Part shown: positions 51,857 through 56,174 of the stretch, piece by piece
Position numbering within the stretch: position 1 is the first letter of the stretch
Layout: every line of letters starts with the position of its first letter
Source of the DNA: Limnobacter sp. MED105
GTDB taxonomy: Bacteria; Pseudomonadota; Gammaproteobacteria; Burkholderiales; Burkholderiaceae_B
Direction: 5' to 3'
NCBI RefSeq assembly: GCF_000170915.1
Contig: NZ_ABCT01000008.1
Span: forward strand, 1-64,000
DNA: 64,000 nt
Translations under genes and position numbers: made by a program
The notes under the pieces: generated by a model
What the model was told of the DNA's origin: nothing
What the model saw: the letters and a program-made list of their open reading frames with translations, nothing else
Databases searched by the model: none

Positions 51857-53617
51857 ATGCGCGCCACCCAGTTTTTTTTGAATACCCTGAAAGAAGCCCC
51901 TGCTGACGCAGAAGTGATCAGCCATCAACTGATGATGCGGGCTGGAATGATCAAGCGCTTGGCCGGTGGCATTTACACCTACATGCCTGTGGGTCTGCGT
52001 TCAATTCGCAAAGTGGAAAATATTGTTCGCGAAGAAATGAACCGCGCTGGCGCGCTTGAGTTGCTGATGCCAGCCGTTCAGCCTGCCGAGCTGTGGCAGG
52101 AAAGCGGCCGTTGGGAAAAGTACGGCCCCGAGCTGTTGCGCATGAAAGACCGGCACGATCGTGATTATGTGATTGGCCCGACGCACGAGGAAGTGATCAC
52201 CGACGTGGTGCGCAAGGAAGTGAAAAGTTACCGACAACTGCCACTGAACCTGTACCAGATTCAAACCAAGTTTCGAGATGAAATTCGTCCCCGTTTTGGT
52301 GTGATGCGTGGTCGCGAATTCGTGATGAAAGACGCCTATTCTTTTGATCGCACGCAAGAAGCCGCCCTGAAAACCTATGATGTGATGTACGACGCTTACC
52401 GCCGTATCTTCACCCGCCTTGGTTTGAACTTCCGGGCTGTGAATGCAGACACCGGTTCAATTGGCGGCAACCGCAGCCACGAGTTTCATGTGATCGCCGA
52501 CACAGGTGAAGATGCAATTGCATACTGCCCCAGTTCAGACTATGCCGCCAACGTTGAATTGGCTGAGGCCGTGTGCACCGCGCAACGCCCAGTCGCCAGC
52601 AAGACCATGGACAAGGTACACACCCCCGGCAATTCGACCTGCGAAGCAGTAGCTGCGCAGTTGGGGCTGGCTTTGACCGCAACTGTTAAAAGTGTGGTGT
52701 TTGCCAATGAGTACCTGGAAAAAGATGAAACCAAGCCAGTCAAGAAGGTACAAATTGTATTGGCGTTGGTGCGCGGTGACCACGAGGTAAACGACATCAA
52801 GTTGGGCAAACTGGCGGGCGTTCAGGAACTGCGCCTGGCCACTGAAGCTGAAATTGTGGCTGCTTTTGGCACCCAACCAGGTTATTTGGGCCCAGTTGGC
52901 TTGTCGCCAGATGTGCGGGTGGTGGCTGACCGCAGCGTCGCCGCCATGGGTGATTTTGTATGCGGTGCCAACGCCGCAGACTATCACTACGCGGGCGTGA
53001 ATTGGGGGCGTGACTTACCCGAGCCCGAGGTGTCCGACATTCGAAATGTTGTTGAAGGCGATCCCTCGCCAGACGGCAAAGGTGTGCTGGCCATGTGTCG
53101 TGGTATTGAGGTGGGCCACGTGTTCTATTTGGGCACCAAGTACTCGGAAGCCCTGCAAGCCAAGTTTTTGGAAGAAAACGGCAAGCCAGCAGTGATTGAA
53201 ATGGGCTGCTATGGCATTGGTGTTACCCGTATTTTGGGTGCTGCCATTGAGCAAAATTTCGACGATCGCGGCATTATTTGGCCATTGAGCATAGCGCCTT
53301 TTGAAGTGGTCTTATGCCCAATCGGCTACAAGAAAAGCGACGAAGTGAAGGCGCAGGCCGACAAGCTTTATCAGATGCTGAAAGATGCTGGCGTGGATGT
53401 GATGCTGGACGACCGCGATGAGCGCCCAGGCGTGATGTTCGCAGATTGGGAGTTGATTGGCGTGCCGCTGCGGGTTACCTTGGGTGACCGTGGCCTGAAA
53501 GAGGGCAAAGTAGAGTTTCAGTCCCGCGATGGCAAGGTTGAAAAGCGCGATGTTGAAGTTGGGGAAATTTTTGAGCAGTTGTGTGTTGAGCTTGCCAGCA
53601 GGCAAGTCAGTTTGTAA
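51857..53617 (+). CDS. proS: prolyl-tRNA synthetase
   Basis: A 586-residue class II synthetase of the bacterial type with an editing (INS) domain inserted between motifs 2 and 3 (~230-390), followed by the catalytic core end ([10 protein letters not shown]) and the anticodon-binding domain. Motif 2 has the [17 protein letters not shown] segment. The ATG at 51857 ([15 protein letters not shown]) is used rather than a TTG two codons earlier. Confidence 0.97.
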
Positions 53618-54284
53618 TCCGTTTGCCCGGTTGGTGCGCAGTGCCCGCCGGGTGTTTGTGCTTGTTGCGGTTGTAGTGGCTGCGACCGGTGTTGGTTCAC
53701 CGGTCTTTGCCAATCAGCAATACGAACCCATGGCAGACCATGTGCGCCTGGCGCTTCGTACCGCCTTGAATGCCCCTGCGGCACCACGTCCAATTTTTGA
53801 TTCCGTAAGCCACCGTATCGACTGGATGGCCGACATGTCACGCCGCCTGGCCCGCCGTGTACCTGATTTCACCCAGCGAACAGAGCTCATCAAGATTATT
53901 CGCTATGAGGCGCAACGAGTTGGCATTGATCCTCAAATTATTTTCGCTTTAATTGAGGTTGAAAGTAACTTCCGTGCCGATGCGGTGAGCCATGCCGGGG
54001 CCATTGGTTTGATGCAGGTGATGCCGTTTTGGACTGATGTATTGTCCAGCGGAAGTTCTCGGGAGTTGTTTGAGCCGCGCGTGAATATTCGCTATGGCTG
54101 CCTTATTTTGCGGCATTACCTCGACATTGAAAAAGGCAATCTGGACCGGGCCCTGGGGCGTTACAACGGCAGCCTTGGGAAAATGACCTACCCGAATCTG
54201 GTGTATGACCGTTTGGATCGCAATTGGGGCTACAGCTATGTTGAACCCCCGAAGCCTGCGCCGCGCATTGCGGGTGACTTTTGA
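53583..54284 (+). CDS. lytic transglycosylase, SLT domain
   Basis: A secreted or membrane-anchored peptidoglycan lytic transglycosylase. A hydrophobic segment ([16 protein letters not shown] then VFA-NQ) looks like a signal peptide. The SLT domain has the catalytic Glu in [13 protein letters not shown], then [10 protein letters not shown] and the RYNGSLG motif. The start is uncertain: the frame is open from 53529, and candidates are ATG 53550, GTG 53583 and TTG/GTG near 53631, all but the last inside proS. The stop codon falls in the first copy of the repeat that opens the hairpin region downstream. Confidence 0.85.
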
Positions 54285-54767
54285 GCTGAACTTGAAGGTT
54301 CGCCGTTTCGGTTTATTGCCCACTCCGCGTGGGTTGTTTGTGTCGCACTGGACCGGTGACGTGGGAGCTGAACTTGAAGGGTCACCGCTGCCCGAAAACT
54401 TGGCATTTCGGCTTGTCGTCTTGAGCCTGCACTAAGCCAAGCCCTCCAAAAGTAACGGTCGGGTCTTGGCTTTCGCGCCAAGGCGCGATCGTTAGTCTCG
54501 GCGCGCCAAGCCGGCAAGTTTTCTGACTGGTCATCGTGCGACCCATTGCAAGTTCAGCTCCCAATCGGCGGCGGTGTTTCGATCGCCTCGCCTTCAAGAA
54601 AACCTGCCCTTGCGTGCCGAGCAGGGCCGGTGTTGCCCAGCATGGGCGACAGAGAACGGACCCGACCCGCAGTTTAGGAGGGTCGTTCTCAGGCATCGCA
54701 AGGCTCAGCAAGGGGAATACAGGTTTTCTGGCGAGAGATCGGAACCCAAGACGATTGGGCCTGAATC
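54273..54767. repeat. palindromic intergenic element: two long hairpins sharing one arm
   Basis: No gene is supportable here. A 26-base direct repeat (23 identical; core GAGCTGAACTTGAAGG) lies at 54273-54298 and 54355-54380. Hairpin A spans 54363-54562: outer stem 54363-54376 with 54549-54562 (14 of 14), then 54379-54383/54540-54544, 54394-54402/54515-54523 (9 of 9), 54409-54415/54507-54513 (7 of 7) and an inner 54434-54441/54465-54472 (8 of 8). Hairpin B spans 54553-54765: 54553-54557/54761-54765, 54560-54567/54752-54759 (8 of 8), 54580-54584/54737-54741, 54587-54592/54730-54735, 54597-54606/54720-54729 (10 of 10), 54607-54613/54708-54714 and a tip 54652-54658/54684-54690. The arm at 54553-54562 is used by both. 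It could be a multicopy palindromic repeat, a structured RNA or a decayed mobile element. Confidence 0.7.
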
Positions 54768-54776
54768 CGCAGTTGA

Positions 54777-56174
54777 TTACATGCCTGGAAACCCGCCACC
54801 CGGTGGCATGCCGCCTCCAGGGAAGCCGCCTTTTCCGCCGCCACCCATTTTTTTCATCAACTTGGCCAGTCCGCCTTTCTGCATGCTCTTCATCATGTCG
54901 CGCATTTGCTCAAACTGTTTCAGCAAGCGGTTTACTTCCTGAACCTGCACGCCCGCACCCGCAGCAATGCGGCGCTTGCGGGAAGCTTTCAAAATATCGG
55001 GCTTGGTGCGTTCGGCAATGGTCATTGAGAAAATAATGGCTTCGGTGCGCTTCATCTGCTTTTCTGCGGCGGTGGCATCCACATCGCCCGCACCTTTCAT
55101 CAGTTGGCTGGGCAATTTGTCCATCAGCCCTTGCAGGCCACCCATGTTTCGCATCTGGCTGATTTGCGCCAAAAAGTCGTTTAAATCAAAAGCCTTGCCA
55201 CTTTTCAGTTTCTTGGCGAGTTTTTCCGCTTCGTGCTGGTCAATGCCTTTTTTGGCCTCTTCCACCAAGGAAACGATGTCGCCCATGCCCAGAATTCGGC
55301 CCGCCACACGGTCGGGGTGAAATTTCTCAAAGCCAGTCAGCTTTTCGCCCACACCCATGAATTTGATGGGTTTGCCCGTAATTTGGCGCACGGAAAGGGC
55401 GGCACCCCCACGCGCATCGCCGTCCATTTTGGTGAGTACCACGCCGGTCAGGGGCAGGGCTTCGTTGAAGGCCTTGGCAGTGTTGGCGGCATCCTGACCC
55501 AACATCGCATCGATCACAAACAAGGTTTCAGTCGGGTTAACTGCTGCATGCAAAGCCTTGATTTCATTCATCATGGCTTCATCAATGCCCAAGCGGCCTG
55601 CCGTGTCCAGAATCAGCACATCAAAAAACTGGCGTTTGGCGTGGTTCAGCGCCGCCAAGGCAATGTCGACTGGTTTTTGAGTGATGTCGGAAGGAAAGAA
55701 CTCGGCGCCTGCCTGCCCGCTGACTGTTTTTAGCTGTTCAATCGCCGCAGGGCGATACACGTCGGCTGAAACGGTCAGCACTTTCTTTTTCAGGTTGTCT
55801 TTTAAATACTTGGCCAGCTTGCCGGTGGTGGTTGTTTTACCAGCACCTTGCAAACCTGCCATCAAAATCACCACCGGGGGCTGCGCGGCCAGGTTGATTT
55901 CTTCTGTTTTCTCGCCAATCAGCTTGATTAGCTGCTTGTGAACAATGCCCACCAGGGCTTGGCCGGGGGTTAAGCTGTTCAGCACTTCCTCGCCCAGCGC
56001 CTGTTCCTTCACCTGATTGATGAACTCTTTCACCACGGGCAGGGCCACGTCGGCCTCCAGAAGCGCCAAGCGAACTTCACGCAACATTTCCTGCGTGTTG
56101 GCCTCGGTAATGCGGGCTTCGCCTTTGATATTTTTGACAACGCGCGTTAGGCGATCGGAGAGGTTTTCAAACAT
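54777..56174 (-). CDS. ffh: signal recognition particle protein Ffh
   Basis: The SRP GTPase, 465 residues. The N domain starts MFENLSDRLTRVVKNIKGE; the G domain has GLQGAGKTTTTGKL, DTAGRLGIDEAMM and TKMDGDARGG; the C-terminal M domain is methionine-rich and ends in a glycine/proline/methionine tail (GGMPPGGGFPGM). The ATG at 56174 is chosen on homology; the longer frame has no similarity upstream. 4.5S RNA, its partner, is not in the window. Confidence 0.96.
   Translation of the reverse strand: MFENLSDRLTRVVKNIKGEARITEANTQEMLREVRLALLEADVALPVVKEFINQVKEQALGEEVLNSLTPGQALVGIVHKQLIKLIGEKTEEINLAAQPPVVILMAGLQGAGKTTTTGKLAKYLKDNLKKKVLTVSADVYRPAAIEQLKTVSGQAGAEFFPSDITQKPVDIALAALNHAKRQFFDVLILDTAGRLGIDEAMMNEIKALHAAVNPTETLFVIDAMLGQDAANTAKAFNEALPLTGVVLTKMDGDARGGAALSVRQITGKPIKFMGVGEKLTGFEKFHPDRVAGRILGMGDIVSLVEEAKKGIDQHEAEKLAKKLKSGKAFDLNDFLAQISQMRNMGGLQGLMDKLPSQLMKGAGDVDATAAEKQMKRTEAIIFSMTIAERTKPDILKASRKRRIAAGAGVQVQEVNRLLKQFEQMRDMMKSMQKGGLAKLMKKMGGGGKGGFPGGGMPPGGGFPGM

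Follow-up and report, generated by a model that had tools for sequence, protein, structure and literature searches.

ERIC repeats are single palindromes of about 127 bp, and integron attC sites work as a folded single strand with one-sided unpaired bases. For long palindromic repeats of the ERIC and BOX kind, a mover or maintainer is mostly not known. Copy numbers of ERIC range from 30 to 711 per genome, and both ERIC and Correia copies affect transcripts, according to PMC10969869. REP sequences measure 20-40 bp (PMC3733652). In Streptococcus pneumoniae, PMC3049150 describes BOX, RUP and SPRITE as structured and dispersed sequences enriched between convergent genes, BOX being also modular, and reads this enrichment as a possible sign of parasitic mobile elements. 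Here we compare with these systems a structured array of Limnobacter sp. MED105, found in the window (the whole stretch of 64,000 nucleotides that was analyzed), and its relatives in the genus.

The array fills a gap of about 495 bp between the stop of a transglycosylase gene (54284) and the end of the convergent gene ffh (54777). The former is a plus-strand open reading frame at 53529-54284, the start of which is not settled; the latter lies on the minus strand at 54777-56174, with a start taken from a simple gene caller. Both gene names come from the preliminary description of this gap, and relatives of ffh occur in all 16 genomes of the genus. Within 54273-54767 we recovered the inverted-repeat arms that had been named there, namely a perfect 15-bp pair (54362-54376/54549-54563) and the internal arms GAAAACTTG/CAAGTTTTC (54394-54402/54515-54523) and AGAAAACCTG/CAGGTTTTCT (54597-54606/54720-54729). 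The direct repeat opening the region is also present: its copies at 54273-54305 and 54355-54387 share 85% identity over 33 nt, 23 of the first 26 nt match by eye and, in the list of open reading frames, the transglycosylase stop (54282-54284) falls inside the first copy. The claim of more structure than expected for an ordinary spacer was borne out, with fold z-scores of -7.8 for unit B read as RNA and -6.2 for unit A read on the minus strand (in both cases 0 of 200 dinucleotide shuffles were as good), and of -7.8 for the whole gap region as DNA (0 of 100 shuffles).

Two units compose the array. The core of unit A (A/C class; 54388-54530, minus strand) is a branched hairpin that runs from AGAAAACTTGCC to GCCAAGTTTTC and bears the apical loop CCGACC-N-TTTTGGA. 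Its low-coordinate outer arm (54355-54387, minus strand) holds TGGGAGCTGAACTTGAAGGGTCACCG and pairs with the other outer arm (54531-54563, minus strand), the two including the 15-bp perfect inverted repeat. The core of unit B (subtype B1; 54590-54734, plus strand) runs from AGAAAACCTGCCC to AAGGG, a one-sided bulge and CAGGTTTTCT. It is preceded by a 5' outer arm (54551-54589, plus strand) that holds CCCAATCGGCGGCGGTGTTTCGATCGCCTCGCC, is paired in the minimum-energy fold and is common to B1 and B2 copies in the alignment, and is followed by a 3' outer arm (54735-54767, plus strand), which in some other copies recurs outward as tandem repeats with a period of 42-43 or 21-22. We searched the genomes with a covariance model, R1, built from 22 B- and C-type cores. 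Although no A-type core was among its sequences, the model detects unit A, with 36.1 bits and a genome-wide E of 7.5e-5 on the minus strand. It matches unit B on the plus strand (85.5 bits, E 2.2e-16), the B core itself being one of the 22. A and B are therefore diverged copies of one design, lying in opposite orientation and head to head. The homology had been anticipated; the orientation and the existence of two classes had been missed.

Adjoining the first copy of the direct repeat, positions 54286-54350 (minus strand) are probably what is left of the outer arm of a C-type unit since lost, as they match at 75% over 65 nt the outer arm of the C-type unit found at the same site in another species (G005, L072). 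Judging from this alignment, unit A seems to have taken the place of a C unit at this slot. The proposal of a decayed mobile unit thus holds for the probable loss, and not for the cores of A and B, which are intact. The array also belongs to the group with the shortest spacer, in which the closing arms of the two units fuse at CCCA, the end of the 54531-54563 arm that is common to the outer arm of unit B. In the longer array L103, the A-side and B-side arms are separate. The fusion in a short spacer explains the shared closing arm of the preliminary description, which does exist here and is confined to the arrays with spacers of 59-60 nt (4 of 36 pairs). Because arm sharing needs such an unusually short spacer, mutually exclusive folding is not general in the family, and the suggested structured RNA with a switch is not upheld as a switch.

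BLASTN with 54250-54780 as a query returned 39 matches, the query included, in the 3.39-Mb source genome, where R1 finds 51 cores, unit A among them. These matches and the strong covariation reported below confirm that the gap structure is a real, dispersed element, as one of the initial options had it. R1 also identifies 43-44 cores in a close relative assembled into a single contig (G007). Considering the best 150 candidates per genome, the matches in the 16 genomes of the genus are 51, 61, 14, 3, 60, 43, 48, 0, 0, 21, 21, 45, 93, 0, 35 and 92, so that the family is present in 13 of them, with 3-93 model matches each. The three genomes with no match are G002, G010 and G015, with G002 and G010 being 85% and 65% complete, respectively. 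Under filters stricter than those of the per-genome counts, the taxonomic family has 13 positive genomes among 268, all of them in Limnobacter, and 252 genomes from 42 other genera gave no match. A blast of 40 genomes (the source and 39 relatives) found matches in 11, the source included, again all within the genus. A pattern scan of named genomes matched Limnobacter parvus, L. alexandrii and Limnobacter sp. 130, sp. P1 and sp. CACIAM 66H1, as well as metagenome assemblies titled only Burkholderiales or Gammaproteobacteria. So far, the element family is found only in one bacterial genus, Limnobacter. No description of it emerged from the literature on Limnobacter repeats or palindromes and on dispersed repeats, searched through titles and the beginnings of abstracts and mostly outside subscription journals.

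The canonical unit is composed, in order, of TTCAAGAAAAC, a stem, two successive hairpins (the second with the apical loop RCC-N-TTTTG), AAGGG, a one-sided bulge and GGTTTTCT. Its core spans about 136 model positions, and long complementary outer arms extend the stem. Of 96 cores, 84 have an apical loop motif that a simple pattern recognizes. The bulge could be read by pattern in 71 cores (the 25 unreadable ones are mostly of A type), and is 5 nt long in 67, 6 nt in three and 4 nt in one. We labeled four recurring subtypes, A, B1, B2 and C, of which A and C behave as one class and B1 and B2 have outer arms in common. Further core types outside these labels occur at L123, L125, L126, L128, L161 and L162. 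At 18 of 57 loci we found tandem repeats no farther than 120 bp from a unit. Most have a period of 42-43, 21-22 or 28 (three have a period of 7), and several of them carry the 3' arm.

The fold of the units covaries. In the alignment of 22 sequences, 29 of 43 pairs show two-sided changes, a figure favored by the prediction of the consensus structure on the same alignment, and none of 500 shuffles reaches any of the observed measures. Overall, 90.6% of the alignment cells pair, compared with 77.1% in shuffles and 33-50% in slid controls. When all 98 model-aligned matches are considered (94 distinct), two-sided changes are found in 41 of 43 pairs, which counts for less as this alignment is fitted to the model. 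The fold may act as RNA or as single-stranded DNA.

To describe the arrangement of the units, we grouped into arrays 96 of the 98 model matches in the source genome and G007, leaving out two weak ones (one on L148 and one on L147), each lying opposite a counted unit on the other strand, and keeping the weak matches at L138 (E 0.46), L126 (E 0.0011) and L128 (E 0.00019); one core of the source genome near a contig end (C12) is outside the set. The resulting 60 arrays consist of 36 pairs and 24 single units. All 36 pairs are head to head, with the minus-strand unit first, and so are all 44 pairs in the pattern-scan records (113 of 117 matches, excluding four cut by locus ends), which may share species with the genus genomes, so that the two counts are not independent. 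By label, 34 of the 36 pairs join one B with one A or C core; the other two (L126 and L128) are unlabeled and by eye join a B-like core with one of a further type. No labeled pair among the 36 is B-B or A/C-A/C. Similarly, 38 of the 44 pattern-scan pairs are labeled B + C and four more are so by reading, the last two being C plus an unclassified type. Under random pairing, the chance of obtaining only mixed pairs is approximately 10^-4.5 with 18 units per class and 10^-9.8 with 36 units each; the former figure is the safer one, because sites common to both genomes are not independent (the source genome alone has 19 pairs). The distance between cores in these two genomes is 59-60, 81-85, 113-118, 136, 145, 154-157 or 172-173 nt; the shortest spacer occurs in four pairs (two of which are one site in two species) and spacers of 81-173 nt in 32. 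In the pattern-scan records the distances spread over 98-234 nt, which weakens the idea of fixed spacer steps.

On balance, we favor the view that the family is a dispersed and non-autonomous element of Limnobacter, a palindromic heterodimer with a layout similar to that of MITEs and REPINs or BIMEs, that is kept by recombination or moved in trans. A full copy would be made of two ends of different class, one A or C and one B, forming branched hairpins that face each other. One folded strand would be recognized or copied, which we infer because the one-sided bulge and the apical-loop motif persist while the stems change. Copies may turn over via recombination or gene conversion through the common outer arms and, beside recombination, transposition by an enzyme supplied in trans may or may not contribute.

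The arrays sit at gene 3' ends. Thirty-six of the 60 lie between convergent genes and the other 24 between co-directional ones; no array separates divergent genes, compared with 16 convergent and 34 divergent cases among 205 element-free control junctions (P-value 1.6e-16 and 1.1e-4, respectively, Fisher test). The signal is detectable in the source genome alone, both for convergent (21 of 34 versus 11 of 135, P-value 1.4e-10) and for divergent genes (0 of 34 versus 21 of 135, P-value 0.0085). Tight operon junctions are part of the control set and exaggerate the convergent contrast, and the flanking genes were called by a simple codon-usage method that missed the transglycosylase gene beside the array in the window. 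The simplest account of this location would be tolerance, as copies there leave promoters unbroken.

Such a location, together with the absence of arrays between divergent genes, could instead reflect a function as RNA: the hairpins would be transcribed as 3' UTRs and take part in termination, in the protection of mRNA 3' ends or in RNase processing for the flanking genes, the two classes serving the two convergent transcripts. The strong covariation, with its recurring loop motif and bulge, and the high identity at some shared slots fit this explanation. Nevertheless, we deem it unlikely. The ffh gap has no promoter-like site, and its three terminator-like sites compare with 1.0 (sd 1.1) in shuffles. 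Units show no fixed strand relation to the genes, since in convergent pairs the transcript of each gene would carry the nearest unit in antisense, whereas nine of ten lone units flanked by co-directional genes have the sense orientation. In addition, the junctions are element-free in several species. Finally, the Rfam search proposed in the preliminary description matched no curated RNA family in the units of the two regions tested, which argues against a known RNA family: the sole match in 54000-55000 scored 12.9 bits (gathering score 100) and lies outside the units, and positions 2250-2900 of L146 gave none.

Between species, 22 of 33 loci of the source genome match array loci of G007 by their flanks. 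Units that occupy one side of a shared slot belong to one class in 32 of 32 comparisons, with the cross comparisons at L129 excluded, and differ in subtype in nine. Same-slot cores with agreeing subtype are 89-100% identical, and cores at different sites of the source genome reach 97-99%, as high as many same-slot cores. These comparisons show that slots are common to species and that cores within a slot are swapped only within their class. At the ffh gap, the source genome and G007 host the same pair with 98.6% identity, compared with 90.5% and 93.0% in the flanking genes. Long-lived slots and an identity above that of the flanking genes could indicate a selected function.

By reading, the same slot hosts C + B1 in G005, C + B2 in G011, G006, G009 and G008, a short unit-free junction in G012 and none in G001, G003, G015, G004 and G002; G013 and G010 are unread. 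G014 (L267-L273 and L064) has a different hairpin at this place, which is also found beside three diverged relatives of the units whose sequence was read; the diverged relatives in this genome (14 model matches) have a similar apical loop. Of the 11 source-genome loci with no G007 match in our set, we tested three (L130, L131 and L133), and for each of them the G007 junction is present and unit-free. Arm-like remnants are visible by eye at array-free sites in G007 and G013 (sites of L130 and L131) and in G012 (ffh gap), so that such sites may be losses, and gain and loss are not separable. We established no clean target duplication by eye at four sites: at the ffh gap, the comparison with G012 returns only a possible short match, CTTGAA/CCTGAA, and the array-free sites may be deletions.

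Further observations concern the surroundings of the arrays. The flanks of one locus of the source genome (L132, G000:C40:43800-48800) match two G007 arrays, L103 and L104 (G007:C1:663400-675100), one each, and the approximately 6 kb between them are absent from the matching place in the source genome; arrays may thus serve as recombination points. Identity between the two genomes also steps at arrays, from 97.8-98.9% to 82.4% at L129/L097 and from 90.7% to 98.6% at L146/L111, which hints at imported segments ending there. In G001, the slot of the L130 site hosts a hairpin (L242) that by eye combines B and C parts, with broken inner pairs.

Turnover of this kind could also be ascribed to passive palindromes, that is to an old repeat whose palindromic form is maintained by template-switch repair and which spreads through homologous recombination alone, no protein recognizing its fold. 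Core swapping in fixed slots, the chimeric look of L242, the 6-kb difference between the two genomes and the arm remnants at array-free sites are all in line with it. Still, we regard this explanation as improbable, because template switching should, by our reasoning, erase one-sided bulges, yet a bulge of 5 nt persists in nearly all readable cores, and because the strict head-to-head geometry and the mixed class of the pairs would be unexpected.

The search for a mover covered Y1 and Y2 transposases and reverse transcriptase. RAYT mobilization was rejected, since the source genome and 15 of the 16 genus genomes have no Y1 transposase (PF01797; RAYT), while five of 14 control genomes are positive; the sole Y1-positive genome of the genus, G008, has 93 copies, and G009 has 92 with no Y1 (best 150 candidates per genome). 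An IS91-type Y2 transposase is found only in G014 (1 of 16), which has only weaker matches, and is absent from the source genome and G007, so that we rejected it as a mover. The same applies to reverse transcriptase (RVT_1), the distribution of which does not follow the family: it occurs in five of 16 genomes, including the element-free G002, and is absent from the source genome and G007. In the arrays of these two genomes, no gene is flanked by a B end on one side and an A/C end on the other, and the simple caller, which missed the transglycosylase gene, called none inside the 60 arrays. In both genomes a pair is separated from a lone C unit by an MFS transporter gene (L129:3089-4339 and L097:2988-4238); as this is a transporter, L129 was discarded as an autonomous copy. 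A plasmid or phage origin was rejected for lack of blast matches in 72,556 plasmid and 50,697 phage records, and two pattern matches in viral contigs are taken as chance, as by our reading they overlap open reading frames of a phage-like contig and have no model match.

A bolder version of the favored reading, which we put forward as a doubtful but conceivable extension, is that the family represents a mobile or maintained element of a new design. Two obligately different, strand-asymmetric branched hairpins would act as left and right ends of a miniature unit, their folded strands would be recognized by a putative non-RAYT protein of Limnobacter, and cores would be exchanged like cassettes in long-lived slots at gene ends. 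With the covarying fold, the two end classes, the shared slots and the array-free junctions available in a family that spans 13 of 16 Limnobacter genomes, the unit, its ends and its turnover are directly testable. The arrays also provide a marker for recombination between Limnobacter species.

Among described systems, the family resembles REPINs and BIMEs, which according to PMC3116915 have an inverted doublet as the unit, are intergenic and in many copies, and have singlets beside doublets. Likewise, the Limnobacter doublets consist of two inverted palindromic units (36 of 36 and 44 of 44 pairs), and 24 of 60 arrays are single units. However, the Limnobacter units differ in size, with about 136 model positions plus arms rather than 20-40 bp, and in having pair members of different classes; moreover, there is no RAYT-type Y1 gene in 15 of 16 genomes. 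Since two of the three tested REPIN features (RAYT and unit size) fail, we did not file the family as REPIN/BIME. Like BOX, RUP and SPRITE, the family is structured, dispersed and enriched between convergent genes, but modules and host are others, and strict two-class head-to-head pairing is not described in the part of PMC3049150 at hand. The family shares with ERIC- and Correia-type MITEs the nature of intergenic structured repeats, as depicted in PMC10969869. Unlike ERIC, it joins two branched hairpins into a heterodimer, in some cases with tandem repeats of the outer arm, and has no established target duplication. With attC sites it shares the folded strand and the one-sided bulge, the comparison with attC, ERIC and BOX being by description only. 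Terminal inverted repeats with no gene inside are a feature of MITEs, and the arrays have head-to-head homologous ends with no gene called inside by the simple caller; the Limnobacter family is called here a member of the dispersed palindromic, MITE-like repeats.
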